DNA from: Acidobacteria bacterium RIFCSPLOWO2_12_FULL_66_21
Lineage (GTDB): Bacteria > Acidobacteriota > Vicinamibacteria > Vicinamibacterales > 2-12-FULL-66-21
Direction of reading: 5' to 3'
Assembly: GCA_001767455.1 (NCBI GenBank)
Contig: MELC01000004.1
Location: forward strand, 1 to 64,000
DNA: 64,000 bases
The notes under the pieces: generated by a model
What the model saw: the letters and a program-made list of their open reading frames with translations, nothing else
Databases searched by the model: none
What the model was told of the DNA's origin: nothing
Position numbers and translations under genes: made by a program
In this document: one piece after another, positions 701 through 60,960 of the stretch
How positions within the stretch are numbered: position 1 is the first letter of the stretch
How the letters are laid out: every line of letters starts with the position of its first letter

Positions 701-1522
701 TTAGAGTTTGGTCGCGGCCGGCGCGACGATCCAGGCGATACCGATGCTGAGGATGTACAGGCCGATCATCGGGAGCGCGAAGATCGTCTGCGTGCCGGGG
801 TCGCCGGTCGGCGTCATGATGGCCGAGGCGACGAAGGTGACGAGAACGGCGTACTTGAAATGGCGGACAAGGAACCGCGCGGTGACGAGTTTCATGCGCG
901 CGAGGAAGAAGACCACCGTCGGAATCTGGAAAATCAGGACGCACGCGATCAGGAAATTGGTGTACAGCGAGAATACCGGATCCAGCTTCGGCATGAACAG
1001 CGTTTCCGGCGAGCTGAAGCTCCCGAAGAACGTCATCATGAACGGGAACAGGACGTAGTGATTGAACGCGGCACCCGCCAGCGCGCCGCCGGTCGAGAGC
1101 AGCACGAACGGGATCGCCATCTTCTTCTCGTGCGAGTACAAGCCCGGCGCGATGAACAGCCATACCTGGTACATGATGTACGGCGCGGCCGCGAGCACGC
1201 CCGCGATCAGCGCGATCTTCAGGTGCAGCGAGAAGGCCTCGCCGGGCTCCGTGAAGATGAGCGACGTGTGCGGCGGAAGGACCCTTCGCGTCGGCTCGAA
1301 GACGAAGTTGTAGATCTGGTTGTGGAAATAGAAGGTCGCGCCGACGCCGACGAGGACCGAGACGACCGCGTGGATCAGGCGCTTGCGCAGCTCGTCGAGG
1401 TGATCCAGGAAGGACATCTTCGCGCCGGCCGCCTCTTCGTCGAAGAGATCCGGGTCCGTCAGATGGATATGCCGATCGTCGGGATCGGGCTCGACGGCTC
1501 CGGGAAATTTCACGAGCGGCAT
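701..1522 (-). CDS. tatC: Sec-independent protein translocase TatC
   Basis: Core membrane subunit of the twin-arginine translocase, which recognises twin-arginine signal peptides and exports folded proteins. The 273-residue product has the family hallmark MSFLDHLDELRKRL (residues 36-49), the conserved EPGEAF loop (92-97) and about six hydrophobic segments to the C-terminus. An acidic 35-residue extension precedes the conserved start. Met36 (at 1417) is an alternative start that would give a more standard protein. The gene follows tatA by 8 bases, so the two are co-transcribed. A candidate substrate, the glycosylasparaginase at 39.0 kb, is encoded in this window. Confidence 0.96.
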   Translation of the reverse strand: MPLVKFPGAVEPDPDDRHIHLTDPDLFDEEAAGAKMSFLDHLDELRKRLIHAVVSVLVGVGATFYFHNQIYNFVFEPTRRVLPPHTSLIFTEPGEAFSLHLKIALIAGVLAAAPYIMYQVWLFIAPGLYSHEKKMAIPFVLLSTGGALAGAAFNHYVLFPFMMTFFGSFSSPETLFMPKLDPVFSLYTNFLIACVLIFQIPTVVFFLARMKLVTARFLVRHFKYAVLVTFVASAIMTPTGDPGTQTIFALPMIGLYILSIGIAWIVAPAATKL

Positions 1523-1530
1523 GGGGCGAA

Positions 1531-1800
1531 TCAGACCTCGTCGGACTTGCGCGGCACGTTCTGATCGTCGGGCGAGGTCGGACGGTGCGGCTCGGGCGTG
1601 CGCTGCCGGTCGGCACTGCGCTGCTCTTCCTGACGGATTTCCTCGTCGAGCGTGCTCTTCAGCTCGTTCGAGGCGCGCTTGAATTCATTGATGCTCTTGC
1701 CGAGCGATCGGCCGAGTTCCGGCAGCTTTCTGGGCCCGAAGATGATCAAGGCGATCACGAAAATGATGATCAGCTCGGGCATGCCGATGGAACCGAACAT
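1531..1800 (-). CDS. tatA: Twin-arginine translocase subunit TatA/TatB family
   Basis: An 89-residue single-span protein. It has a short periplasmic N-terminus, a transmembrane helix (about residues 5-20), the [10 protein letters not shown] hinge, an amphipathic helix, and a charged tail rich in Glu, Arg and Pro. The FGP hinge is typical of TatA, which forms the protein-conducting assembly with TatC. No separate tatB lies next to it, so this may be a minimal TatAC system, although other copies could lie elsewhere. An AGGA ribosome site precedes the ATG by about 9 bases. It is divergent from the S41 protease gene. Confidence 0.93.
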
Positions 1801-1865
1801 AAATTAAATCCTTGATGGGCTGACAGTTAACGACGGCTGAGATGCCCGCGGACCCCTCGCTTTGC

Positions 1866-1871
1866 ATTATA
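1866..1871 (-). promoter_or_regulatory. Candidate -10 element for tatA-tatC
   Basis: A perfect TATAAT on the minus strand lies about 65 bases upstream of the tatA ATG in the divergent spacer. No good -35 hexamer is visible at 16-18 bases, so the assignment rests on the -10 alone. Confidence 0.4.
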
Positions 1872-1937
1872 AGCCGAGACGCCGGCGGTTTGGCGCGCCG
1901 AGGCGGGCTCAGCCGTTCCATCCGTGCCCGGAAGTCG

Positions 1938-1966
1938 TTGCGACAATGGAACTTGTCTGCTACGAT
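1938..1966 (+). promoter_or_regulatory. Candidate promoter for the S41 protease, possibly giving a leaderless mRNA
   Basis: TTGCGA (1938-1943), a 17-base spacer and TACGAT (1961-1966) each match 4 of 6 consensus positions. The predicted transcription start falls at or next to the ATG at 1973, which also lacks a ribosome site, so the mRNA could be leaderless. Confidence 0.35.
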
Positions 1967-1972
1967 GCAAAG

Positions 1973-3589
1973 ATGCGTAGTTCCCGGTTCTTTCCGGTCT
2001 CCGTTCTTGCCGTGCTGGTCTCGGCGCTGGTTGGCGGCTTCTTCGGCAGCAACCTGCTCGCAACCGAAGATGAAGTCTCGCAGCAGTACCGCGTGTTCAC
2101 GTCGGCGCTGGCGGCGATCGACCGCGAGTACGTCGACGCCGTGCCCTCCGAGCGGCTCGTCTACGGGGCGATCGACGGCATGCTGCACACGCTCGATCCG
2201 CACTCGAGCTTCTTCGATCCGAAGGAGTACGCGCAGATGCGCGAGCGGCAGGAGGGGCGCTACTACGGTCTCGGCATCACGATCCAGGTCATCGACGGCG
2301 ACATCACCGTGATGTCGATCTTCGAGGGTTCGCCCGCCTACAAGAAGGGGCTGCGCCGCGGCGACGTCATCGCGCGCATCGAAGGCGTGGACACGAAGGG
2401 GTGGCTGAGCGACCAGGCGGTGAAGAAGCTCAAAGGCCCGAAGGGCACCACCGTCAACATCTCGATCCGCCGCCCGGGCTACGAAGGGCTGATCGACATG
2501 GAGGTCGTGCGCGACGAGGTGAACATCACGACGGTCCAGGGCGAGTTCATGCTCGACAAGGACACCGGCTACGTGAAGCTCACCGAGTTCTCCGAGACGT
2601 CGGACCGCGAGCTCGGCAAGGCGCTGTCGGGGCTGACGTCGAAGGGCATGACGCGGCTCGTGCTCGACCTGCGGAACAACCCCGGCGGCGCGCTCGACCA
2701 GGCCATCCGGATCTCCAACCGGTTCCTGCCGCGCGGCGACCTGATCGTCTACACGCGCGGCCGCATCGCGAACGCGGATCAGGACTATCGCGCGACCGAG
2801 GAGAGCGGCTACACGCACCTGCCCATGGTCGTGCTCGTGAATCGCGGCAGCGCCAGCGCCTCGGAGATCGTCACCGGCGCGCTGCAGGATCACGATCGCG
2901 CGCTCATCGTCGGCGAGCGCACGTTCGGCAAGGCGCTCGTGCAGTCCGTCTACCGGATTGTCGAAGGGGCGGGCGTCGCGGTCACCACCGGCCGCTACTA
3001 CACGCCGAGCGGACGCCTCATTCAGCGCCCGTGGGACGGGACGTTCGACGAGTATCTGATGTACGGTCTCCGCGATCAGACGAGTGAGCGTCCGCATCAG
3101 GCCTCGGAACTGAAGTACACGGATGCCGGCCGCAAGGTGTATGGCGGCGGCGGAATCGAGCCCGACAAGTTCGTCCTCGGCTCGTACGAAGGGTTCAACC
3201 CGACGCGGTTCGGGCGGCAGCTTTTCGCGCGGCAGTCGTTCTTGAACTTCGCCGACCGGTTCACGGCGGAAGGCGACACGCGGCTGAGCGCGGCCAACCA
3301 GAACCGGAAGCGGATCTCGCGCGGCTTCACCATCACCGACGACATGATGAAGGACTTCCGCGCGATGCTCGTGTCGCAGAAGGTCAGGATCGACGAAGAG
3401 GCGTTCGTGAAAGACGAGGCGTTCATCCGGGCGATGATTCGCTACGAGATCGATTCCGCACTGTTCGGGATCGACGAAGCGCGCCGGAACCTGATCGCCG
3501 CCGACCCGCAGGCGCAGTTCGCGGTCACGCAGTTCCCGGAAGCCGAACGCCTGATGCAGCTTCCGCAGGCGCACGCGAAGGCGCGCTGA
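1973..3589 (+). CDS. S41 family (CtpA-like) C-terminal processing peptidase
   Basis: Exported serine protease, 538 residues with this start. An N-terminal hydrophobic segment (about residues 5-28) acts as signal or anchor. A PDZ domain follows around residues 90-170 (YGLGITIQV, GSPAYKKGLRRGD). The tail-specific protease core has the nucleophile motif GSASASEIV and the general-base lysine in FGKALVQ. This is the Ser/Lys dyad of CtpA/Prc proteases, which trim or degrade periplasmic proteins. I chose the ATG at 1973 because it places the signal segment at the N-terminus. The frame is open back to 1862, with another ATG at 1946, but that adds non-signal sequence. No ribosome site is obvious. Confidence 0.9.
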   Translation: MRSSRFFPVSVLAVLVSALVGGFFGSNLLATEDEVSQQYRVFTSALAAIDREYVDAVPSERLVYGAIDGMLHTLDPHSSFFDPKEYAQMRERQEGRYYGLGITIQVIDGDITVMSIFEGSPAYKKGLRRGDVIARIEGVDTKGWLSDQAVKKLKGPKGTTVNISIRRPGYEGLIDMEVVRDEVNITTVQGEFMLDKDTGYVKLTEFSETSDRELGKALSGLTSKGMTRLVLDLRNNPGGALDQAIRISNRFLPRGDLIVYTRGRIANADQDYRATEESGYTHLPMVVLVNRGSASASEIVTGALQDHDRALIVGERTFGKALVQSVYRIVEGAGVAVTTGRYYTPSGRLIQRPWDGTFDEYLMYGLRDQTSERPHQASELKYTDAGRKVYGGGGIEPDKFVLGSYEGFNPTRFGRQLFARQSFLNFADRFTAEGDTRLSAANQNRKRISRGFTITDDMMKDFRAMLVSQKVRIDEEAFVKDEAFIRAMIRYEIDSALFGIDEARRNLIAADPQAQFAVTQFPEAERLMQLPQAHAKAR

Positions 3590-3894
3590 CACGGAAAGGT
3601 GTAGGGCATTTGGCCCTAGATTTTGGGGTACGAGTTTAATCTTGTCCTAGGTATAGGGGCTTGTTAGACTGACGGCCGTTCGCTGGCGTCCAGGGGCCAT
3701 CCCGCTTTGGGTGGGGTGTGGGCACCGGCCGTACGGCCTTGTCACGTCATCGTCGTAGACTCCCGAGCAATCACGTGTCTTCGAAGCGCTCCCAGCCGCT
3801 TCACGGCCGGAGTCGTGTCTCCCGGCGCCGGTGAAGCGGCTTTCGCCGTTTTGGGCTGAACACGTCGCGGGCCACAGCAAGGAACCAGATCGCC
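3590..3894 (+). other. Intergenic region with a terminator-like hairpin
   Basis: This 305-base gap separates the S41 gene from smc. A 6-bp stem (3602-3607 with 3613-3618, loop of five) followed by GATTTT resembles a weak intrinsic terminator for the protease gene. The remainder has local GC palindromes around 3715-3740. I saw no gene, tRNA or convincing promoter. smc has an AAGGAA ribosome site about 10 bases before its ATG. Confidence 0.4.
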
Positions 3895-6800
3895 ATGCGG
3901 TTGCAACGTCTCGAAATTGCCGGCTTCAAGAGCTTTCCCGACCGATCGGAACTCACCTTCGACCAGGGCGTCACGGCGATTGTCGGTCCCAACGGATGCG
4001 GCAAGAGCAACGTCGTCGACGCGCTGACCTGGGTCCTGGGCGAGCAGAGCGCGAAGAGCCTCCGCGGCGACCGCATGGAGGACGTCATCTTCGGCGGGAG
4101 CGACGCACGCAAGCCCACGGCCGCCGCGGAAGTGCGGTTGAAGCTGAAAGGGGTGGCGGCGCGCGTACCGGCGGGCGCGGGCGCCCGCGCGGTGGTCCTG
4201 GACGAAGGAGGCGTCGCCCCCGGCGGCGGGGAAGCGCTTGCCGGTCCCGACGGCACGCTGCTGGTCCCTTCGGTCGCGCTCGACGACGAGCCGCTCATCG
4301 TGCGCGACGTGGAGCTGATGCGGCGCCTCTATCGCTCCGGGGAAAGCGAGTACCTGATCGACGGCGAGAGCTGCCGGCTGCGCGACGTGCAGGACCTGCT
4401 GATGGATGCGGGGCTGGGCATCAAGGCGTACGCCGTGATCGAGCAGGGCAAGATCGGCCAGATTCTCAGCGCGCGCCCGACCGATCGGCGCCAGCTGATC
4501 GAAGAAGCCGCGGGAGTGACGAAGTACAAGAGCCGCCGCCGGGCCGCGGAGCTGAAGCTCGAGGCGGCGCAGCAGAACCTCACGCGCGTTGACGACATCA
4601 TCTTCGAGGTCGAGAAACAGCGTGGCGCGCTGAAGCGGCAGGCGGCGAAGGCCCGCCGGTACAAGCGGCTGCGCGAACAGCTGCGGCAATGGGAGAAGGT
4701 CCAGTTCGCCGAGCGGTACCGCGTGCTCGGACGCGCGAGAGAGTCGGCGCGGACGCGGCTGGCCGACGCGCGCGGCCGCGAGACGATGGCGGCCGCGCAC
4801 CTCGCCGAGGTCGAGGCGTCGCTCGAGCGCCTGCGGCTCGAGGTGGCGGAGGCGGACGGCCGCACGACCGCGGCGCGTGAAGCGGCGCACGCGAGCGAGC
4901 TCGAAAACGGGCGGCTGCAGCAGCAGATCGCGTTCGACAAACAGCAGGTGGAGTCGCTGGGCACCGCCGCCGCGGAGATCGAAGCGGAGCTCGCGGCGCT
5001 CGAGGCGCGGCGCGGGCCGGCCCGGCTCGAGATCGACGCGCGCCGCGAGGCCGCGCTGCGGGCCGGCGCGGAGCGCGATGAGGCGGCCGGCGCCCTGCGC
5101 GCCGAGGAGATCGCCTACGGAGAGCTGCACCGCAATATCGAGGGACTCGAAGCGGACGTGGAAGCCGCGCGCAGCGAGGTGTTCGCGGCGGTGAATGCCG
5201 CGACCGCGCTGCGGCATGCGATGGACCATGCGGCCGCCGCGGGCTCGAGGATGGCCGAGCAGATCCACAAACTGGAGGTCGAGAGCCAGGACGTGCGCGT
5301 CGAAGCGGAGCGCGCGTCGGACGAACGGCGTGCCGCCGAAGCCGCCATGGCGCGCGCGTCCGAGGCCATCGAGACGTTGCGGCTGGAGCACGCCGCGAGG
5401 GAGTCGGAGCACTCGGGGGCCCGCGGCGATCGCGAGCGACGCATGCGGGCGTTCCAGGCACAGGAGCGCGAGCTCGCCGGGGTGGTGGCGCGGCTGAAGT
5501 CGCTCGAGGAGCTCGACGCCGCGCGCGCCGAGTACGGCGATGGCGCGCGGCTCGTGCTCGCCGAAGCGGGCGACGCCGTCGCGCACATGGGGTCGGTCGC
5601 CGACCACCTCGAGGTGGCCGGAGACTACGAGCGGGCCGTCGAAGCCTGTCTCGGAGATCTGCTGCAGCATGTCGTCGTGCCCACGCACGCACACGCGGCG
5701 GCCGGCCTGGATCTCGCGCGAACCCGCCGTGCGGGCCGGGTCGGCTTCCTGATCGCCGGCGCCGCCGCGACACTCGACGTGCAGAGTCCTGGGCCGGGGG
5801 TACGGCCGCTGTCATCGGTGGTCCGCATCGATGGACCGGCGGCGGAGGCCATTCGCGCCGCAATCGGCGGCGCGTTGATCGCCGACACCCACGAGGCGGC
5901 GCGCGCGGCCGCGGCGGCCACCTCGGCACCGGTCGCCACGCTCGACGGCCGCGTGTTCCGCGGCGCGCACGTGGTCGAGGGCGGCACGCCCGCCGAGGCT
6001 CGCGGCATCCTGACGACGAAGCGCGAGATCAAGGAGCTGCGCGAGCAGAGCGAGACCGGCCGCGCCGCGGTCGCGCGCCTCGCCGAGGAGATCTCCGCCC
6101 TCGATCTGACCATCGCGTCGGTGGAATCCGCCATCCTCGCGCTCCAGTCGGAGCTGCACCGCCAGGAGAAGGCGGCCGTCGGCTTCGAGCTGCAGATCGC
6201 GAGCGCGCGCGAGGCGGGGGAGCGGGTCGCGCGCAAGCAGGAACAAATCGCCACCGAGCGCCGATCGGCGGAGGAAGAGCTGCGGGCGCAGGAGGCCCGT
6301 CACGAAGAGGCGCGCGAGTCCATCACGCGCATCCAGACGGAACAGCGGGCCGCCGACGAGCGGCTGCACCAGGCGCAGCGCCGCCTGTTCGAGGCGCGTG
6401 AGGCGATGCAGGCGCAGGCCGAGCGCACCGCGGACGCCAAGGCGGCGCATGCCGGCCTCGTCGAGCGGACCAGCGGCCTGGCGGTCGAAGTCCAGCGGCT
6501 GGAGGAAGCCGCCCGCGAGCTGGAATCGCGCGTCACGGCGCGCCAGGACGATCTCCGTCGGACCGATGCGCGCCGCGCCGAGCTCGTGACCGCGATCGCC
6601 GCCGCGGAGACGCGCCTCGACGAGGGGCTCAGGGCCTTCGACGAGCTGCGCGAACGCGTGCGGGCGGCCGACGACACATCACAGGCGCTCCACGGCGCGT
6701 TCGACGAGCAGGACGGGCGCATCCGGGAGGCCCGCCGCGCGCTCGAACTCGTGCGCGCGGAGCTGGCGCAGGCCGACCTCGCCCGCGCGACCGCCGAATC

Positions 6801-7655: not shown

Positions 7656-8765
7656 TTGAACGAAGACAAGTCCTCGCGCTACCACCGCCTGAGGCGCCGC
7701 GCCGCGCTTGTCTCCCTGGCGGTTGACGGCGCGCTGTTCACCGGCCTGCTGGCGTCCGGCGCCTCGCGCTTCCTGTGCGACCGCGCGGCCTCGCTGACCG
7801 GCGGCACGGTGGACGCGGTCTCCACCGTGGCGATCTACTCCCTCTGGATTGCGCTGGCGTACGAGGCTGTGGCGCTGCCGCTGGCGTTTCAGCGGAGCTA
7901 TCTGCTCGAGCGCCGCTTCGGACTGTCATCGGAGTCGTTCGCGACATGGCTGCGCGATCATGCCAAGGCGACGTCGATCAGCGTGATCGTCGGCGTGGCC
8001 GGGGCCGAAGCGGTGTATGCCACGATGCGCGGGCTGCCGCAGGCGTGGTGGGTTGCCTCCACGGCGATCTGCGTCGCGGCGCTGGTGGTCGTCGCGAAGG
8101 CCGCGCCGCTCGTGCTGCTTCCCCTGTTCTATCGGTTCACGCCGCTCGACCGCCCCTCGTTGAACGATCGCCTCGTCGATCTCGCGCGGCGCGCGGGCGT
8201 GCCCGCGGTCGGAGTCTACGAGTGGGGCCTCGGCGAGAAGAGCCGGCGCGCGAACGCCGCGCTGGTCGGCACGGGCGCAACCCGCCGCATCATCGTCTCC
8301 GACACCCTGCTGGCCGCGTACTCGGAGGACGAGATCGAGGTGATCCTCGCGCACGAGCTCGCGCACCACGTGCATCGGGACATCCTCAAGGGGCTCGCCG
8401 TGGAAGCCGTCGTGATCGCGGCCTCCTTCTTCGCGGCCGCGCTCGCGCTGGACGCCTGGTGGCTGCGGCTCGGCCTCCGTTCCCCGGCCGATGTCGCGGG
8501 CCTGCCGCTGCTGCTGCTCGCCGGGGCAGCGACGACCCTTGCCGCGACACCGATCGTGAATGCGATCTCGCGCGCCGCGGAGCGCCGGGCCGATGCGTAC
8601 GCGCTGAGGCTGACCGGACGTCCCGCCGCGTTCGTCTCGGCGATGCGGCGCCTGGCCACGCAGAACCTGGCGGAGGAGCACCCGTCGCGCGCGGCGCTGT
8701 GGCTGTTCTACACGCATCCCCCGATCGGGGAGCGCATCCGGTCCGCGGCGCCAGGGAACTCGTGA
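7656..8765 (+). CDS. M48 family (Ste24/CAAX-protease-like) membrane metallopeptidase
   Basis: Integral membrane zinc protease of about 369 residues. HELAHH (residues 233-238 from this start) gives two zinc ligands and the catalytic glutamate. AAERRADAYAL about 90 residues later supplies the third ligand. Hydrophobic helices lie at about 17-35, 55-78, 105-125, 133-158, 245-265 and 275-295, matching the Ste24-like topology of M48A. There is no ATG at the N-terminus. The frame is open upstream inside smc, and TTG at 7656 is the most sensible start, although no ribosome site precedes it. Translation may be coupled to smc termination at 7647. The stop codon lies inside a GTGAATTCG-type tandem repeat. 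Confidence 0.85.
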   Translation: MNEDKSSRYHRLRRRAALVSLAVDGALFTGLLASGASRFLCDRAASLTGGTVDAVSTVAIYSLWIALAYEAVALPLAFQRSYLLERRFGLSSESFATWLRDHAKATSISVIVGVAGAEAVYATMRGLPQAWWVASTAICVAALVVVAKAAPLVLLPLFYRFTPLDRPSLNDRLVDLARRAGVPAVGVYEWGLGEKSRRANAALVGTGATRRIIVSDTLLAAYSEDEIEVILAHELAHHVHRDILKGLAVEAVVIAASFFAAALALDAWWLRLGLRSPADVAGLPLLLLAGAATTLAATPIVNAISRAAERRADAYALRLTGRPAAFVSAMRRLATQNLAEEHPSRAALWLFYTHPPIGERIRSAAPGNS

Positions 8766-8813
8766 ACTCGTGAATTCGTGAATTCGTGAGTTGGTGAGTT
8801 GGTGAGTTGGTCC
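8752..8813 (+). repeat. Short tandem repeat GTGAATTCG / GTGAGTTGG
   Basis: Degenerate 9-base units (GTGAACTCG, GTGAATTCG, then GTGAGTTGG three times) begin in the last codons of the M48 gene and run into the intergenic gap. The same GTGAGTTGG unit forms the larger array at 28.89 kb, so this is a dispersed family. With the downstream cupredoxin gene convergent, it may also act as a transcription boundary. Confidence 0.8.
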
Positions 8814-11788: not shown

Positions 11789-11858
11789 TTCGTCCCTCCA
11801 CGCACGGCCCAGACCCTCGGGGCACCAGCCCCCGCACCAGACCGCCGTTCCAAACCAA

Positions 11859-11923
11859 GGTGCTGAAGCGTGCTGAGAGGTGCTGAGAGCACCCTTCAGC
11901 ACCTCTCAGCACCCTTAAGCACC
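11859..11923 (-). repeat. Inverted repeat built of GGTGCTGAGAG units
   Basis: Two 28-base arms (11859-11886 and 11896-11923) separated by 9 bases. The inner 17 bp, GTGCTGAGAGGTGCTGA, pair perfectly and the outer part has two mismatches. Each arm is itself a degenerate tandem repeat. It sits in the truB-rpsO spacer within the operon, so it would be a large mRNA hairpin and could set relative rpsO/pnp expression. Confidence 0.85.
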
Positions 11924-12851: not shown

Positions 12852-13016
12852 TTGATTCTTGTCAACTCCAAACTCCAAAGTTCAAACTCCAAGGGCACGC
12901 CAAAATCCAAACTCCAAACTGCGAAGGAACGCCGAATTGGAGCGGCTTGCACCTTTGGGCTTTGGAGTTGGCCTTTTGGAGTGCCTTTGGAGTTTGGAGT
13001 TTGGAATTTGGAATTG
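12852..13016 (-). repeat. Long inverted array of CAAACTCCAAA units
   Basis: The 165-base nrnA-truB spacer consists of AACTCCAAACTCCAAA-type units (12861-12920) and their reverse complement TTTGGAGTTTGGAG (about 12955-13015), around a core with AATTGGAGCGG. The whole spacer can fold on itself. It lies inside the operon, so the transcript would carry it. A shorter relative lies at 14408-14474. Confidence 0.85.
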
Positions 13017-14036: not shown

Positions 14037-14409
14037 CCGCCTCCGGCCCGCCCTCCGCGCGCTCGGAGCTGAGATCCCGGAGGATCCGCTCGATCCTGTC
14101 CGCCCCCTCGATGGATTCGTCGAAGAAGAAGGTCAGCTCGGGCACCCGCCTGAGCCGCAAACGCCGGCCGATCTGCCGCCGCAGGAACGGGGTGGCGCGG
14201 CCGAGGGCGCGGGCCGTGTCGCGCCGCGCCTTGTCGTCGCCAAGGGTCGTGTAATAGACGCGCGCCTGCTGCAGGTCGGCGGTCACGGTGACGCGGGTGA
14301 GCGTGAGGAAGCCGATGCCGGGATCGTGGACCTCGCGCGCGAGCAGCTCGCCGAGCTCCGCTCGAATCTGGTCGCCGACTCTGGCTGGACGCTCAGAAGA
14401 CAGGATCAA
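14008..14409 (-). CDS. rbfA: 30S ribosome-binding factor RbfA
   Basis: Cold-shock ribosome maturation factor that helps 16S 5'-end processing. The protein is about 130 residues, with RPARVGDQIRAELGELL, DPGIGFLTLTRV and PELTFFFDESIEGADRI typical of the KH-fold family. The start is uncertain. There is no ATG: TTG at 14409 or 14415, or CTG at 14403 (with GGAG 6 bases upstream), are possible, and the frame is open to 14436. All of these lie inside an intergenic inverted repeat, which supplies the only GGAG ribosome site. A C-terminal acidic tail overlaps nrnA. Confidence 0.88.
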   Translation of the reverse strand: MILSSERPARVGDQIRAELGELLAREVHDPGIGFLTLTRVTVTADLQQARVYYTTLGDDKARRDTARALGRATPFLRRQIGRRLRLRRVPELTFFFDESIEGADRIERILRDLSSERAEGGPEADGTGHDDEK

Positions 14410-14474
14410 CTCCAAACTGCAAACGCCAAACTCCAAACCTCAAATTTGGAGTTTGAAGTTTGCAGTTTGGAGTT
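14408..14474 (-). repeat. CAAACTCC-family hairpin over the rbfA start
   Basis: Arms of 17 bases (AACTCCAAACTGCAAAC at 14408-14424, complement at 14458-14474) pair perfectly around a loop that contains a smaller CCAAA/TTTGG pairing. It occupies the whole infB-rbfA spacer and covers the candidate rbfA start codons and ribosome site. Confidence 0.85.
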
Positions 14475-20861: not shown

Positions 20862-22154
20862 CTAGGGGTAAATCCTGTACAGCATGCGCGGGTAAGGAAT
20901 GGCCTCGCGCAGATGATCGATGCCGCAGATCCAGGTGACGACGCGCTCGATGCCCATGCCGAAGCCGCCGTGCGGCACGCTGCCGTAGCGGCGGAGATCC
21001 AGGTACCACTCGAAGGCTTCCTGCGGCAGGTTGTGCTCCTTGATGCGCTGCAGGAGCAGGTCGTAATCGTCGATGCGCTGCCCGCCGCCGATGATCTCGC
21101 CATATCCTTCCGGCGCGAGGACGTCGACGCACAGGGCGACGTCCGGCCGCGCGGGATCCGGCTTCATGTAGAACGCCTTGATGGCTGACGGGTAGCGGTG
21201 GACGCACACGGGCCGGTCGAACTGTTCGGAGATCGCCGTTTCGTCCGGCGCGCCGAAATCGCCGCCCCACTCGAAGGGGAGTCCCTTCTCCTTCAGCAGC
21301 TTCGCCGCGGCGTCGTAGGAGAGGCGCGGGAACGGCGCCTTCACGCGCTCGAGCTTCGCGATGTCGCGCTCGAGGACGGCGAGCTCCCGCCGGCGCGTTC
21401 GCAGCACGCGCTCGACCACGTGCACCACCAGCGCCTCGGCGAGGTTCATGACCTCCTCGAGATCCGCGTAGGCCATCTCGGGCTCGACCATCCAGAACTC
21501 GGTGAGATGCCGCCGCGTCTTCGACTTCTCCGCGCGGAACGTCGGGCCGAAACAGTACACGCGGCCGAGCGCCATCGCGTTGGCTTCGTTGTACAACTGG
21601 CCGCTCTGCGTGAGATACGCCGTCTCCTCGTCGAAGTACTGGACGGGGAAGAGCGTGGTCGTGCCCTCGCATGCGGCGGGTGTGAAGATCGGCGTGTCGG
21701 CCAGGATGAAACCGCGCGCATTGAAGAAGTCGCGGACGGCGTCGATCACCTCGTGGCGAATGCGGAGAATGGCCTGCTGGCGCGGCGCGCGGATCCAGAG
21801 GTGGCGGCGGTCCATCAGGAAGTCGACGCCATGCTCCTTGGGGGTGATCGGGTAGTTCAGCGATTCGGAGACGATCTCCAGCCGCGCGACGTCGACCTCG
21901 TACCCTCCCGGGGCGCGCTGATCCGCGCGGACGGTGCCGTCCACGACGATCGCGCTCTCCTGGGCGAGATGATCCGCACGCATGAACGCGTCGTCGCCCA
22001 CGGCCTGTTTGGTCATCACGCACTGGATGAACCCGGTGCCGTCGCGCAGCGTCAGGAAGTGGATCTTGCCGCTCGACCTCCGGTTGTGCAGCCAGCCGCG
22101 GAGCGTCACGGCCTGTCCGTCGTGGCGGGCGATGTCCTCGATGTAGGCGATCAT
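20862..22154 (-). CDS. asnS: Asparaginyl-tRNA synthetase
   Basis: Class IIb aminoacyl-tRNA synthetase of 430 residues. The N-terminal OB-fold anticodon-binding domain ([29 protein letters not shown]) precedes the catalytic core. The core has motif 2 ([19 protein letters not shown]) and motif 3 ([11 protein letters not shown]). The sequence WMVEPEM and the overall length fit AsnRS rather than AspRS, which is longer. The ATG overlaps the stop of the upstream isomerase gene by 4 bases (ATGA), so the two are translationally coupled. rimO follows after 130 bases. Confidence 0.96.
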
Positions 22155-22990
22155 GCGTGTGCCAGCGTGCGTTCGAAGCGCTGGCGGGCCCGGCCTGCCT
22201 CCGCGAGATCCCGCGCGGCCGCCGCCGACGCCTGCAGCTCCATCATGTAGGTCCCCTCGTAGCCGATCTTCCGCATGGTCACGAGCGCGGTGTCCCAGTT
22301 GATCGATCCGCCGTAGGGCACGAGGTGCTCGTCCTGGCGGCCGTGGTTGTCGTGCACGTGCGTGGCGATCAGGTGTTCGGCGGCCGTCTCCACTTCGTCC
22401 GCCACGTCGCCCAGCAGATGTGCGTGGCCGAAGTCGAGGCAGATGCCGGCGTGCCGCGCTTCGAGGTCGCGCTCGAGCATCGCGACGAGCGCCTGGGCCG
22501 TCGACAGGTCATTCGGGATGACCTCGAAGGCGACCCGAACCCCGAGCGGCTCTGCCATGCGGCAGACCTCCTCGGCGCTGCGCAGCGCCGCCGCCCGGCT
22601 GTTGTCGCCCGGCGCCGCCTGCGCCGACGGGCTGCCCAGGTGCACGACCAGCGTCTGGAACGGAATGCGCCGGGCAATCTGCAGCGCCGCTTCCGTTTCC
22701 TTCAGCGCCGCATGCCGCTTCGCGGCGTCGCCGCACGCGTTCGACAGCATGGATCCCCATCGGCCATTCGAGCGGCTTTCACTGATGGGCGCGTGGATGC
22801 TGTCGAGCGCCAGCCCCGTCTCGGCCAGCCACGCCGCCAGGCGATCGATCGCGGCCGGATCGTGGTAGTCGAAGTGCGTCCGGGTCGCGAAGAGCTCCAC
22901 GGCCTCGAACCCGTGGCCGGCGATCTCCGCCAGGTGCGCCCGACCGAGCCGCTCGTCGATGTAGAGATGGGTCGAAATACCGAAACGCAT
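22151..22990 (-). CDS. Sugar phosphate isomerase/epimerase-like TIM-barrel protein
   Basis: A 279-residue member of the AP-endonuclease-2/xylose-isomerase-like TIM barrel family. The N-terminus [10 protein letters not shown], the HAPISES strand, [28 protein letters not shown] and THVHDNHG supply the usual metal-site His/Glu/Asp residues. YMMELQAS closes the barrel. The substrate cannot be told from sequence. The ATG at 22990 starts the domain cleanly; the frame is open 77 codons further but that part reads repeat DNA. It is coupled by a 4-base overlap to asnS. Confidence 0.85.
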
Positions 22991-23113
22991 GGAATTCTGG
23001 GCCAAATCGAACCACTGATTGTACCACGAGCGACAGCCACCCCCACGCTGCACGCGCCGACGGCTCTTTGGCACGAAGACCACGAAGAGGACACGAAGAC
23101 CGTCATGACGAGG

Positions 23114-23261
23114 CTGTGCCGTCGAGCCGCGCGCAGCGCGGCAAGGACAGTCGGAACCCGCACACGCACGCAGCACGCGATCCCGAGCTGTTTGCGTGTG
23201 CCGGTTCCGGCTGTCCTGCACCGCCGGCCCGCAATCATGCGGCCGGCGCTCGACGGCCCAG
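23114..23261. repeat. Multi-stem inverted-repeat element (four-helix fold)
   Basis: A closing stem (23114-23125 with 23250-23261, one mismatch) encloses three hairpins. These are a 7-bp stem with GCA loop (23126-23142), a 25-base arm pair (23144-23168 with 23193-23217, two mismatches) and a 7-bp GC stem (23223-23229 with 23241-23247). The layout is a compact four-way junction. It is flanked on both sides by opposite-orientation CACGAAGAC repeats. It could be a MITE-like element or a structured RNA; I know no named family that matches. Confidence 0.5.
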
Positions 23262-23344
23262 CCGAGTCTGACGTTCCGCTGAGGCGAGACACCTGACGGT
23301 CTTCGTCGTGATCGTCTTCGTGAGCTTCGTTCGCAGCCCGTAAT

Positions 23345-23800
23345 GCTGCGTGTCTTGCCGGTGGAAGTCCGGCCGTGGGAGCCGGCTGTCTCCTCACGTA
23401 GTGAGACTCGACATCTCGCTGAGACGACTCAGGAGGTGAAAGCTCGAACGTAAACGTCCTGGCCGGCGCAGGGCAAGCAACCCATCGGGCCGTAGCGGAT
23501 GCGAACTCAATCAGCCTCGTGACACGACGCGCTGGTACCGGAACGCGCGACAGTGCAGATGCCGAGCCGATGCGAAGACGGCAAAGGCCAATGCGAACGG
23601 TCACGTGACAGCCGCATGCGACCGTCCGGTCTGCCGGGGTTCAGAGATGGCACGGTGGGACAGACACGCAGAGTAAAGCGGGGACCCTCTCGCGACCTGC
23701 GGAGGGGGAGAGGGAAACACCGGTGCCCCGAGCGCGTTCACCCAGACGCTTCATGGACATTGGGTTCTCCAGCTTGCCGTGCACGTCGGTGCGCCCTCCC
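23345..23800 (+). mobile_element. Probable group II intron 5' ribozyme remnant
   Basis: The sequence CTGCGTGTCTTGCCGGTGGA, then AGTCCGGC, AGGAGGTGAAAG, CGTGACACGACG, ACGGCAAAGGCCAA and the later GGCACGGTGGGACAGACACG matches in order what I remember of the domain I-III leader of some bacterial group II introns. No reverse-transcriptase/maturase frame follows, and no domain V hairpin or 3' end was recognised. It would therefore be a truncated, inactive copy. This rests on remembered motifs, not alignment. Boundaries are approximate, and the canonical GTGYG 5' end is not exact. Confidence 0.4.
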
Positions 23801-23814
23801 TCTACTCGGCGACG

Positions 23815-24180
23815 AAGAGCCGTCAGCTCGCGACAGCGGCACAGCGGAACAGCGGGGGAGCGGAGCCTTCGTGCACTTCGTGTTTGGAAAGCCGTCAGCT
23901 CGCGACAGCGGCACAGCGGAACAGCGGGGAAGCGGAGCAGCGGGGAAGCGGAGCAGCGGAACAGAAATCGATCTATTTGACAGTCTTCGTGTGCTTCGTG
24001 TCCTTCGTGCACTTCGTGTTTGGAAAGCCGTCAGCTCGCGACAGCGGCACAGCGGAACAGTGGGGGAGCGGAACAGCGGAACAGGAATCGATCTATTTGA
24101 CAGTCTTCGTGTGCTTCGTGTCCTTCGTGCACTTCGTGTTTGGAAAGCCGTCAGCTCGGGACGGCGGGACAGTGGGACAG
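23815..24180 (+). repeat. Tandem-repeat block (CAGCGGAACAGCGG and CTTCGTGTGCTTCGTG units)
   Basis: Four copies of AGCCGTCAGCTCGCGACAGC begin near 23818, 23890, 24027 and 24147. Each is followed by CAGCGGAACAGCGGGG-type units. Copies two and three continue through GAATCGATCTATTTGACAG-like sequence and CTTCGTGTGCTTCGTGTCC units. Higher-order spacing is about 72, 137 and 120 bases. Copies two and three are nearly identical over about 100 bases, suggesting recent duplication or slippage. Confidence 0.85.
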
Positions 24181-24199
24181 CGTTACGGGCTCGGTGCGA

Positions 24200-25234
24200 T
24201 CAGCGGAATTCGTCGACCAGGTCCGCGAGCAGGTCGCGCATCGGGCCGAATTCGGTGAGGCGATCGAGGTTGTCGCGGACGTACCGAAGCGTTCGGGGGA
24301 TGTACTGGATGTACACCGGGTTGCGCCGCGCGGTCGTCTGGTAGCCGAACGTGCCGAGCGCCTTCAGGTTGCGCTGGAGCGCCATGTGGTCGAATCGCTG
24401 CCGGAAGTCGCGCTGCGCGCCGCTTTCCCCCTTCAGCGCGAGGAAGTACGCGATCAGCTCGTCGACCGTCTGCTCGGGCAGGTCGACATACGAGTCGCGG
24501 AGCAGCGACACCAGGTCGTAGGTGTCGGGACCGAGCCTCGCGTCCTGGAAGTCGATGATGCACAGCCGCCCGCGGTGGAGCATCAGGTTGCGGCTGTGAT
24601 AATCGCGGTGGCAGAGGACCCGCGGCTCGGCCGCGAGCGTCTCGATGAGGCCGGCGAACTCGCGGCGAAGGGCCTCGCGCGTGTCCGGCGCGATGACGAT
24701 TCCGCGGTAGGCCTCGACGAAGTGCTTGATGAAGAAGTCCATCTCCCAGGTGAGCTTCTCGACGTCGAAGGCGATGCCGTACGGCAGGTACTCCGGCGAG
24801 GCCAGTTCGGCGCCGCGGCGCTGCAGGGTCGCGATGAGGGCGACGGCCTCGCGGTAGAGCGCCGCATGTTCGGCGGGCGTGGCCGCCCCGAGATGCGCCT
24901 GGAGCGTGACGTCGCCGAGATCCTCCAGCGCCAGCACGCCGAGGTCCTCGGCGTGGCCGAGCAGCGCCGGCACGGGCACGGGCATCCGCGCGAGCAGCCG
25001 CGCGACGTTCACGAACGACATCGTCTCGAATTCGAAGGGAGCGGAATAGAGTGAGAGCACGATCGAGGGGCGGTCGGGCACGAGCACGCGGAAGTAGCGG
25101 CGGTCCGAGGCGTCGCCGGTCAGCGGCACGACGCGCGGCCGCGATTTGGCGAGGCTGCTGCGCTCGAGATACCCGGCAATCCGCTCTCGCGCCCCCGTGG
25201 CGTCGGCCTGTCGATGGTCGATCATCGGCGTCAC
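24200..25234 (-). CDS. amgK: Phosphotransferase, AmgK-like anomeric MurNAc/GlcNAc kinase
   Basis: A 344-residue aminoglycoside-phosphotransferase-fold kinase. Catalytic motifs are LCHRDYHSRNLMLH (Brenner loop, Asp as base) and IIDFQDARLGP (metal-binding Asp). SDRRYFRV and LEDLGDVTL belong to the nucleotide lobe. In Pseudomonas, AmgK phosphorylates MurNAc at C1 and MurU converts it to UDP-MurNAc. Here the frame directly follows and overlaps a murU-like gene, which supports this role. The start is GTG 25234 overlapping the murU stop (GTGA), or ATG 25225. Substrate is inferred from family and context. Confidence 0.85.
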   Translation of the reverse strand: MTPMIDHRQADATGARERIAGYLERSSLAKSRPRVVPLTGDASDRRYFRVLVPDRPSIVLSLYSAPFEFETMSFVNVARLLARMPVPVPALLGHAEDLGVLALEDLGDVTLQAHLGAATPAEHAALYREAVALIATLQRRGAELASPEYLPYGIAFDVEKLTWEMDFFIKHFVEAYRGIVIAPDTREALRREFAGLIETLAAEPRVLCHRDYHSRNLMLHRGRLCIIDFQDARLGPDTYDLVSLLRDSYVDLPEQTVDELIAYFLALKGESGAQRDFRQRFDHMALQRNLKALGTFGYQTTARRNPVYIQYIPRTLRYVRDNLDRLTEFGPMRDLLADLVDEFR

Positions 25235-28835: not shown

Positions 28836-28887
28836 GAGGGCGTGACCCCAGTATTTCATGGCGGGGATACGCCCTTATGCCAGTATT

Positions 28888-28980
28888 TGGTGAGTTGGTG
28901 AGTTGGTGAGTTGGTGAGTTGGTGAGTTGGTGAGTTGGTGATGTCGTGAATTCACGACATCACCAATTCCACCAACTCGC
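28888..28980. repeat. GTGAGTTGG tandem array with perfect palindrome
   Basis: Six units of the 9-mer GTGAGTTGG run to about 28939. A perfect 22-base palindrome centred on GAATTC (28940-28961) and the partial complement CACCAATTCCACCAACTCGCC follow. The whole can fold as a hairpin. It fills the htrA-midA spacer on the minus-strand transcript. The same unit appears at 8.77-8.81 kb. Confidence 0.9.
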
Positions 28981-44032: not shown

Positions 44033-44076
44033 AAAGAACGGCGCGCCAGCGATGTTCCGCAAGCGCGCCGTTCTTT
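44033..44076 (-). terminator. Terminator hairpin downstream of the BNR-repeat gene
   Basis: A perfect 14-bp stem (44033-44046 with 44063-44076, AAAGAACGGCGCGC) with a 16-base loop. On the minus strand the second arm ends GTTCTTT, providing the U-rich stretch. It lies between the BNR-repeat gene and paralogue A on the same strand. Confidence 0.6.
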
Positions 44077-44172
44077 GACTTTGACTGTCGACTTTGACTG
44101 TCGACTTTGACTGTCGACTTTGACTACCGACTTTGCCTACCGACTTTGACTATCGACTATCGACTATCGACT
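44077..44172. repeat. TCGACTTTGACTG tandem repeat
   Basis: About seven degenerate units of 11-13 bases (GACTTTGACTGTC, GACTTTGACTACC, TATCGACTATCGAC) run up to the stop codon of the BNR-repeat protein. The same family occurs at 57.14-57.29 kb, there as a complete inverted pair. It replaces ordinary spacer sequence beside a terminator hairpin. Confidence 0.9.
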
Positions 44173-56040: not shown

Positions 56041-56559
56041 ATGGACATCTATCTCGCATGCACGGTGCGCGGGGATCGCGGCGGGCTCGCGTCGGCGCGG
56101 GCGCTTGCCGACCTGCTCGAACAGCACGGGCACACGGTCCTGACACGCCACCTCCTCGCCGACGACGTGGAGGCCGCCGAATCCACCTTGACCGAACGGG
56201 ATGTGTTCGAGCGGGACCTGCGGTGGCTCAACGTGGCGGATCTGCTGATCGCCGAGGCCTCGGGATCGAGCTTCGGCGTCGGCTTCGAGGTCGGCTACGT
56301 GCTCGGGCGCGCCGACCGCACCGGCCAGCGCGTGCTCCTTCTGTACGACTCGACGCGGCGCGCCAACGTGTCGCGGCTGATCGCCGGCAACGCGCACAGC
56401 GCGTGCACGACGTACCCCTATCGCGACGGCGCGGACCTGATGCAGTTCGTCAGCCTCTACCTCGCCCCGGTCGCCGAAACACGGAAGGACACGGAAACAC
56501 GGAAGGACGCGGACGGACACGGAAAAGCCCCGGGTTCTTTCGTGTTCTTCCGCCGTTAG
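56041..56559 (+). CDS. DNPH1/nucleoside 2-deoxyribosyltransferase-like N-glycosidase with repeat-derived tail
   Basis: 172 residues. MDIYLACTVRG, FERDLRWLNVADLLIAEASGSSFGVGFEVGYVLG and RVLLLYD match the nucleoside 2-deoxyribosyltransferase fold of DNPH1 (Rcl), with catalytic Glu in GVGFEVGY and the GSSFGVG phosphate-binding motif. DNPH1 hydrolyses deoxynucleoside monophosphates, especially 5-hydroxymethyl-dUMP. The natural domain ends near VSLYLAPVA (residue about 146). The last 26 residues (ETRKDTETRKDADGHG onward) are read from a CACGGAAG repeat and are probably unstructured. dut follows 141 bases later. Function is inferred. Confidence 0.8.
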   Translation: MDIYLACTVRGDRGGLASARALADLLEQHGHTVLTRHLLADDVEAAESTLTERDVFERDLRWLNVADLLIAEASGSSFGVGFEVGYVLGRADRTGQRVLLLYDSTRRANVSRLIAGNAHSACTTYPYRDGADLMQFVSLYLAPVAETRKDTETRKDADGHGKAPGSFVFFRR

Positions 56560-56690
56560 ACCTCCGTGTTCGTCCGTGGTTGAGATCCGTGTCTTCCCGT
56601 GTGCTTCCGTGGTTGAGATCCGTGTCTTCCCGTGTGCTTCCGTGGTTGAGATCCCGTGTCTTTCCGCGTGCTTCCGTGGTTTGATTCGGT
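56478..56690. repeat. CACGGAAG / CTTCCGTG inverted array
   Basis: ACACGGAAGGACACGGAAAC-type units (56484-56524) are followed by the reverse family TCCGTGTTCGTCCGTGG and then a 33-base unit (TTGAGATCCGTGTCTTCCCG...) present twice perfectly and once degenerately (56583-56690). The array supplies the C-terminus of the DNPH1-like protein and fills the spacer to dut. Confidence 0.9.
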
Positions 56691-57144: not shown

Positions 57145-57292
57145 TCGATAGTCGATGGTCAAAGTCCAAGTCAAAGTCCAGGTCCAAGGCAAAACGTCAA
57201 AGTCCCAGTCATCTCGTGAGAGACGACTGGGACTTTGATTTGGACTGTCGACTTTGACTGCCGACTTTGACTATCGACTATCGACTGATCAT
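57136..57292. repeat. TCGACTTTGACTG-family inverted array and bidirectional terminator
   Basis: GATAGTCGATAGTCGATGG with GTCAAAGTC units on the left and GACTTTGACTATCGACTATC on the right pair across the whole spacer. The core is a 13-bp perfect stem (57198-57210 with 57225-57237) with a 14-base loop, flanked by A-rich and T-rich sequence. It lies between convergent dut and RRM genes, and starts in the last codons of dut. Confidence 0.85.
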
Positions 57293-57302
57293 ATCGACGG
57301 AA

Positions 57303-59630: not shown

Positions 59631-60218
59631 ATGAGAGTTCGTCCACGCTTCGCGTTTCCCCTGGCGGTCGCGCTCGGGTTGACGCTCTGCGCGACCGCCG
59701 TACGCGCGCAGGGCACGACGGCGGCGCCAACCAAGGAGGAGTTCACCGCGTTCGCCGTGAACCTGAGCAGAATCGGGAGCACGACGCCGACGCCGCTCGA
59801 CATCACTATTACGCGCTGGACCACGGTCGCGGAGCAGGAGCGGCTCACGTCCATCCTGCGCGAGAAAGGGCAGCCGGCGCTCGTGGATGCGCTGCACAAG
59901 GCCCAGGCCATCGGGTCGATACGCACGCCGACCAGCCTCTCCTACGAGTTCCGGTATGCGATACAGGAACGTACGCGCGACAACCGCCGCCGCATCATTC
60001 TCCTCACCGATCGGCCGATCGAGTACGAGGAGCTTGCCGATCGCGGGGTGACGCTCGAGTATCCGTTCGCCGCGATCGAGCTGCTGGTGGACGACAACGG
60101 GAAAGGGGCGGGCAGTCTCTGGATCGCGGCACGGCTGACGCTGCTCGACAACCTGCTGATTCTCGACAACTACGCCGACCGGCCGGTGACGCTGAACGGC
60201 GTGCACCGGCGCAAGTAA
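59631..60218 (+). CDS. Small exported protein of unknown function
   Basis: 195 residues with signal peptide RFAFPLAVALGLTLCATAVRAQ. The mature part is mixed alpha/beta: EEFTAFAVNLSRIGSTTPTPLDITITRWTT, then ERLTSILREKGQPALVDALHKAQAIGSI and RRIILLTDRPI, with acidic YEELADRG and a hydrophobic strand AAIELLVDDNGKGAGSLWIAARL. I recognise similar acidobacterial hypothetical proteins but no named domain. A strong GGAGGAGGG lies about 9 bases before the ATG, suggesting good expression. Confidence 0.8.
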   Translation: MRVRPRFAFPLAVALGLTLCATAVRAQGTTAAPTKEEFTAFAVNLSRIGSTTPTPLDITITRWTTVAEQERLTSILREKGQPALVDALHKAQAIGSIRTPTSLSYEFRYAIQERTRDNRRRIILLTDRPIEYEELADRGVTLEYPFAAIELLVDDNGKGAGSLWIAARLTLLDNLLILDNYADRPVTLNGVHRRK

Positions 60219-60300
60219 CCAGCGGGGTGAGGCAGCCCTGAAGGGCTGCGCAACAACGACGGCGATCAGAATCTCTGTTACGCAGGCCTTCAGGGCCGCC

Positions 60301-60960
60301 TTATCGGGCCGCGAGGCTGCGGATCAGCGTGAGCAGCACGTCGATGGCGACGGTGTTGTGGCCGCCGAGCGGGATGATGATGTCCGCGTAGCGCTTGCTC
60401 GGCTCGACGAACTCCAGGTGCATCGGCTTCACCGTGCCGAGGTACTGGTCGATGACCGAGTTCACGGTCCGCCCGCGCTCGGCGATGTCCCGCTGCAGCC
60501 GCCGGATGAAGCGCGTGTCGTCGTCCGCGTCGACGAACACCTTGACGTCCATGAGCCGGCGCAGCGCCGCGTCGGTGAAGATCAGAATGCCTTCGACGAT
60601 GACCGCCTTGCGCGGCTCGACGCGAACGGTGACGGGCTGGCGCGCGTGCCGCGCGAAATCGTACGTCGGTTTCTCCACGCCCCGGCCGGCGCGCAGCTCG
60701 TGAAGGTGTCGCACGAGCAGATCGGTCTCGAGCGAATCGGGGTGATCGTAGTTGAGCGAGGCGCGTTCCTCGAGCCGGAGATCGTTGCGGTCCCGGTAGT
60801 AGCGGTCGTGCTCGAGCACCGTGACCTGGTCGTCGCCGATGCTCTCGATGATGTGCCTGACGACGGTCGTCTTCCCCGACCCCGACCCTCCCGCCACGCC
60901 GATGACCAGTGGAGCGTGCGTGCCTGACGCGGCCCCGCCGGCCGCCGTTTTCGCGTCCAT
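60301..60960 (-). CDS. udk: Uridine kinase
   Basis: Phosphorylates uridine and cytidine in pyrimidine salvage; 219 residues, standard length. P-loop GVAGGSGSGKTTV (about 21-33), HDRYYRDRNDL, NYDHPDSLETDLLVRHL, PTYDFARHAR, IVEGILIF (acidic metal site), VDADDDTRFIRRLQRDIAERGR and the C-terminal PLGGHNTVAIDVL identify it. The N-terminus has a short Ala/Gly-rich extension. It is convergent with the exported protein and divergent from the DUF2339 gene. GGGCTGCG...AGGGCTGC repeats occupy the 82-base spacer. Confidence 0.94.
   Translation of the reverse strand: MDAKTAAGGAASGTHAPLVIGVAGGSGSGKTTVVRHIIESIGDDQVTVLEHDRYYRDRNDLRLEERASLNYDHPDSLETDLLVRHLHELRAGRGVEKPTYDFARHARQPVTVRVEPRKAVIVEGILIFTDAALRRLMDVKVFVDADDDTRFIRRLQRDIAERGRTVNSVIDQYLGTVKPMHLEFVEPSKRYADIIIPLGGHNTVAIDVLLTLIRSLAAR

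Follow-up and report, generated by a model that had tools for sequence, protein, structure and literature searches.

The DNA analysed, which we call the window, is a single stretch of 64,000 nucleotides. It contains a gap of 1209 bp, 22991-24199, referred to below as the island, which is flanked by two minus-strand genes, one of the TIM-barrel type and the other of the APH family. The genes and features at this locus are the following:

20862-22154: asnS, which adjoins the TIM-barrel gene
22151-22990, minus strand: TIM-barrel (AP_endonuc_2) host-flank gene (Pfam PF01261, 1e-31), with the gene order kept in relatives
23040-23069, plus strand: end A (CACGCTGCACGCGCCGACGGCTCTTT), common to other copies in the genome; terminus approximate
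23072-23098, plus strand: left array of three CACGAAG units, read directly
23110-23265, no strand given: cloverleaf core (R1 160.5 bits, R2 123.7 bits; covariation; unconstrained fold), with the outer stem at 23114-23125/23250-23261 and the hairpins at 23126-23132/23136-23142, 23144-23174/23187-23217 and 23222-23229/23241-23248
23301-23328, minus strand: right array of CTTCGTG-type units, shortened by the intron relic, from the comparison with loci L022-L024
23329-23700, plus strand: 5' relic of a group II intron (D1 to the start of D4), right limit approximate, with no RT and no D5/D6
23813-24196, no strand given: tandem array of end-module units and period-8 GGACAGCG repeats; period-120 part at 23931-24182
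24200-25234, minus strand: APH-family (amgK-like) host-flank gene (Pfam PF01636, 1.9e-27), which adjoins an NTP-transferase gene

The structures that the initial annotation described in this gap, namely an inverted element, a group II intron leader, a tandem array and CACGAAG repeats, are all present in 22991-24199. It had placed them between asnS and the MurNAc-recycling operon, which is correct on the APH side and wrong on the asnS side, because the TIM-barrel gene, whose start codon is at 22990, intervenes.

The order NTP transferase, APH, TIM barrel and asnS is common to many related genomes. In the 20 relatives with both sides of the junction readable, the gap between the APH and TIM-barrel genes had a median of 48 bp (from -13 to 192), against 1209 bp in the window. 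The exception was L210, with a gap of 3131 bp, while the junction was compact in the other 19. The alignment of the junction between relatives is thus in agreement with the initial annotation, as the median gap is 48 bp and 19 of 20 genomes have no large insert. Nevertheless, the idea of a landing site, taken as a hot spot, was not borne out, since besides the window a large insert was found only in L210, where a permease-like gene (888 aa, at 1384-4475) is inserted at the same APH/TIM junction.

Positions 23040-23328 of the window are one of about 48 copies of an element without ORFs, in which an end sequence is followed by a CACGAAG array, a cloverleaf of four helices and an inverted CTTCGTG array. 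Full copies measure around 370 bp and consist of end A (CGCTGCACGCGCCGACGGCTTTT), CACGAAG units, the core, CTTCGTG units and end B (AAAGCCGTGGCCCGTCTCAGCGTGG); according to the comparison with L022-L024, end B is missing from the copy in the window. The nested inverted repeats of this copy (23092-23322, 23107-23268 and 23144-23217) correspond to an outer stem that closes three hairpins. The stretch 23046-23330 matched four other places of the same genome with 80-88% identity over its whole length, and further places in part. The number of copies comes from R1, a covariance model built from 15 copies of the window genome, which found about 48 places in this genome at E<=1e-3. These dispersed copies, together with the median gap of 48 bp in relatives, make an insertion more than a chance reading, and the proposal of the initial annotation that selfish DNA was inserted at this junction is supported and probably right. 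A weak match to a broad cloverleaf model (E 0.03) also lies in the window at 60163-60339.

The copies differ in the orientation of the core relative to the ends, and the long hairpin is lost in some of them. Two main core families occur in the window genome, one with a GTCGAGC stem, which carries CACGAAG arrays in 14 of 14 cases, and another with a GGTCTGG stem, which carries CACGGAG arrays in 15 of 16. Because core family and array unit occur together, cores and arrays appear from their sequences to be passed on together. Relatives have the same architecture with other array units (CACAGATT, ACGCGGAT and others), and short inverted arrays like these are found repeatedly in these genomes. In the window copy, direct reading gives three CACGAAG units to the left of the core and units of the CTTCGTG type to its right, that is, inverted arrays of the C[AG]C[AG][AG]A[GT] type; the score of this copy (L105) in the automated array test was no higher than 1, owing to the shortened right array. 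We found no earlier description of the array sequences in the open-licence literature, which does not prove that there is none.

Regarding the cloverleaf, its structure is kept by compensatory change. In an alignment of 15 copies, 97.2% of the cells were paired and 17 of the 55 pairs had double changes, a result that none of 500 shuffles equalled, and when the partner was slid by 1-3 columns the pairing fell to 33-40%. Folded without constraints, 67 of 68 copies from the window genome and its relatives formed an outer stem that carried three branches, neither more nor fewer, with a middle branch of 68-84 nt. Only 2 of 561 control pieces passed the strict version of this fold test, which was used in place of a loose one whose control (55 of 285) was too permissive.

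Strong covariation and very stable folds are also what a structured RNA would give, or a terminator or attenuator regulating the neighbour genes. However, neither strand is preferred: the fold energies of sense and antisense are balanced, without one strand being consistently better in 19 copies beside genes of the GxxExxY family (see below), and G.U cells number 19 against 15 A.C cells when one invariant G.U pair is left out. Furthermore, both strands score with covariance models, the orientation of the core with respect to the ends varies from copy to copy, and the search of Rfam 15 for the cloverleaf returned only chance-type matches far below the cut-offs. We therefore regard a regulatory RNA as improbable, mainly because of the strand symmetry. 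Since the structural constraint is about equal on both strands, the cloverleaf looks, on sequence grounds, like a DNA-level palindrome rather than an RNA. The strong covariation would in this case seem to originate in DNA and not in RNA, and this matters for the automated discovery of non-coding RNAs.

The tandem array next to the APH gene belongs with the element. Its period-120 part (23931-24182) contains 2.1 copies that match at 91%, with sub-repeats of 8-9 bp, and CACGAAG/CTTCGTG units occur within it as well as at both element ends. The reverse complement of end A aligned to the array unit with a score of 39, whereas 500 shuffles gave at most 25, and similar arrays were found beside cloverleafs at contigs C89, C5 and C24; cloverleafs with arrays of this kind are present in L029, L057, L058 and L059. 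This end-module match and the arrays beside other cloverleafs make the tandem array part of the same system and, as judged from the alignments, it is the element's own end module amplified and not an unrelated repeat. The clear local amplification of end modules at these three contigs could suggest immobile satellite-like DNA that spreads by slippage and gene conversion only. We give this explanation very little credit, since some dispersal is required to account for around 48 copies scattered in the genome and for a lineage-specific insertion between two genes.

The "probable group II intron leader" of the initial annotation was right as to its identity: RF02003 (group-II-D1D4-4) matched 23355-23500 on the plus strand with 55.6 bits, above the gathering score of 49, and this was the sole Rfam match at the gathering threshold in the 64 kb window. 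The alignment to intact introns of relatives reaches approximately 23650-23700. What is left now, as far as these searches indicate, is a real but dead relic, because the island lacks an RT and, at E<=5, any other group II family (D5/D6), and the window genome has no detectable RVT_1 protein. The island copy shares the 5' domain region with group-II-D1D4-4 but is truncated, lacking RT and D5/D6. Intact relatives begin with GTGCGCCGTGAAAGGCGCC, and the window reads GAGCTTC followed by GTTCGCAGCCCGTAATGCTGC, with the boundary placed by reading; the point of entry of the intron seems to be a CTTCGTG unit in the right array. One relative (G142) has 17 RF02003 matches, against the single relic in the window genome.

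Thus, the three structures are not unrelated, as the initial annotation had described them, since the array is made of the element's own end module and the intron relic lies inside the element's CTTCGTG array. That three unrelated selfish sequences gathered independently at a hot spot seems to us highly improbable: the array has the element's end module, both co-occur elsewhere in the genome, and the junction is free of large inserts in 19 of 20 relatives, although a group II intron does belong to another class of elements and L210 carries an insert of its own there, of 3.1 kb.

In relatives, fuller forms of the element contain an ORF of the GxxExxY family (TIGR04256; PF13366, PDDEXK_3). PF13366 is absent from the whole window genome and from the window copy, so that only the solo form occurs there, and nothing in a genome without PF13366 indicates that its copies can move now. 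The gene is present in 70 of 162 genomes of the same bacterial order. Of 63 loci with the gene, 27 had inverted arrays on both sides, and so did 27 of 40 cloverleaf loci in the same test, whereas it was passed by none of 290 random positions, 26 PF05635 genes or 12 group II loci. These counts are exploratory because the array unit pattern was picked after viewing some of the counted loci. This test replaced a first one with plain 7-mers, whose background was too high in GC-rich DNA. When the loci were clustered by their flanks, as a measure of orthology, arrays were found at 14 of 31 independent GxxExxY loci and the cloverleaf at 11 of 39. Therefore, more than half of the independent loci have no array in the strict test and most of them have no cloverleaf.

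The independent test of the link is R1, which was trained on the window genome only, without any PF13366 gene, and which detected the cloverleaf beside GxxExxY genes, with a single weak match, at E<=0.01, in 64 control loci. A second model, R2, which was partly trained on GxxExxY loci, gave 0 matches in 71 control loci. Across the phylum, R2 found the cloverleaf in at least 9 of 396 genomes, all of the same order, a lower bound because 7 candidates were scored per genome. The cloverleafs linked to GxxExxY genes in relatives are unrelated in sequence to the core of the window and have the same architecture. At six GxxExxY loci two cloverleafs surround the ORF, sometimes as direct copies, and these pairs are 71-99% identical within a locus, compared with a mean of 54% between loci. 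At one orthologous GxxExxY site the cloverleaf stands directly after the stop codon in three genomes and is absent in two; this site is shared across genera by L318, L280, L333, L325 and L267. For many GxxExxY loci there are orthologous ones in other genera, which makes them old residents and not recent arrivals.

In other phyla, too, reading by eye showed short arrays at several of five plasmid-borne GxxExxY genes (Sphingomonas, Bernardetia, Gemmatirosa and Persicobacter). On a plasmid of Sphingomonas parapaucimobilis (L369, 1507-1935), the gene lies between fabD and fabG and is flanked by CGCGAAGGCGCGAGG and CTTCGCGGCTTCGCG.

The structure predicted for the GxxExxY protein was confident (pLDDT 93.9), and the structure search matched PD-(D/E)XK folds. 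The best match was 4ic1 (SSO0001) with Z 9.9, restriction enzymes and archaeal Hjc appeared at Z around 7, and lambda-type exonucleases were also among these middling matches. The predicted model supports a PD-(D/E)XK nuclease fold, which by itself does not assign a specific activity. A sequence search of the PDB with the GxxExxY profile gave no match at E<=1; likewise, there was no match in phages and no confirmed relative in viral contigs. To our knowledge, no function is known for this family. We found no description of GxxExxY elements in the open-licence literature, where the name occurs in a virus context.

The element is shorter than 500 bp, has no ORF, ends in similar inverted repeats (A and B) and has about 48 dispersed copies, so that its size, ends, intergenic site and copy number fit those of MITEs (PMC10969869). 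Neither a target-site duplication nor exact termini could be defined in the copies and flanks inspected. It could be a conventional MITE moved in trans by an ordinary transposase, with the cloverleaf as its interior and the GxxExxY genes as passengers. We consider this unlikely, although less so than a regulatory RNA. No transposase lies inside the copies examined, and the architecture, which recurs in different genomes although its sequences are unrelated, is linked to a single nuclease-like family. Furthermore, the Y1 (TnpA-REP) genes of the genome sit among other palindromes (GCAGCCC..GGGCTGC); the search for a parental transposase by family covered one family, Y1 (PF01797), whose flanks do not match the element.

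Several known systems resemble the element in part. Like prokaryotic MITEs and BOX, ERIC and RUP, it is short, ORF-less, dispersed and intergenic, with end inverted repeats and internal hairpins, but it differs from them in that the cloverleaf is conserved as an architecture and not as a sequence, in its degenerate 9-11-mer end arrays and in its link to a PD-(D/E)XK gene, with no transposase found. Like REP/RAYT systems (TnpA-REP, Y1), it consists of palindromes scattered over the genome and, in relatives, has a protein gene linked to it, but this protein is not a Y1 transposase. As a candidate, REP/RAYT was rejected because the Y1 genes L078 and L079 are flanked by repeats of the GCAGCCC..GGGCTGC type and not by the cloverleaf; these two genes lie amid many such palindromes, which is the typical REP arrangement. 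The palindromic GC clusters of yeast mitochondria are mobile, and they diversify and merge; they differ in being organellar and shorter, one example having 42 nt, and short end arrays or an adjacent nuclease gene are not described in the available portion of that source (PMC4478555).

The explanation that we favour, and which we hold to be rather probable, is that the island is one lineage-specific insertion of an ORF-less element of arrays and cloverleaf, in a non-autonomous form, and that GxxExxY may cut the cloverleaf or the ends, after which repair would copy the element. The anatomy, the number of copies, the structural constraint on both strands, the linkage to the gene and the presence or absence of a cloverleaf at one orthologous site are shown by the sequences, whereas mobility, nuclease activity and the target of the nuclease are inferred. 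The window copy is read as non-autonomous because other members carry the GxxExxY gene by or between cloverleafs. According to this explanation, a solo element would have been inserted at the APH/TIM junction in this lineage, its end module would have been tandemly amplified afterwards, and a group II intron would have inserted in the CTTCGTG array on the right, losing its RT and its 3' part later. As to the mechanism, the cloverleaf may form in DNA, either extruded or on single strands during replication, with a shape like a four-way junction, and the GxxExxY protein may cut it or the element ends. The break might then be repaired from another copy, the short end arrays serving for annealing, so that the element is copied or the gene and the cloverleaf are added or removed.

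In a wider reading, which is quite possible but which we put forward with some doubt, these elements would form a separate class of mobile DNA across phyla, in which a PD-(D/E)XK nuclease (GxxExxY) and a DNA cloverleaf replace the transposase and the end arrays are short and degenerate, and the island would be its gene-less form. If this were true, the class would explain many of the so far unexplained repeats of the CACGAAG, CACAGAG and CACAGATT types in environmental genomes. The arrays, the GxxExxY gene and the cloverleaf together lead to a concrete and testable hypothesis of an element with a structure-specific nuclease.

Regarding other partners and arrays, PF05635 (four-helix-bundle) was tried as a partner and rejected, as the arrays beside its genes are heptamer-type with different sequences and a cloverleaf is lacking. 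At L142-L171, PF05635 genes of this order (four-helix-bundle / 23S rRNA IVP) often lie beside heptamer arrays (for example GGCTGGT, GTGAACC, TTGTCCC), which are a class apart from the CACGAAG type. In the window itself, inverted ACACGGAAGG and CCGTGTGCTTCCGTG arrays are separated at 56476-56681 by a short spacer with no cloverleaf between them. Other tandem arrays with units of 7-13 bp were observed in the window at 12864-13012, 14408-14474, 11858-11923 and 57158-57298, and further ones at 44073-44172, 28887-28941 and 8756-8811. Several of the short arrays of the window are inverted pairs: AACTCCA/TTTGGAG, AGGTGCTGAG/AGCACCCTTC and GTCAAAGTCC/GGACTTTGAC.
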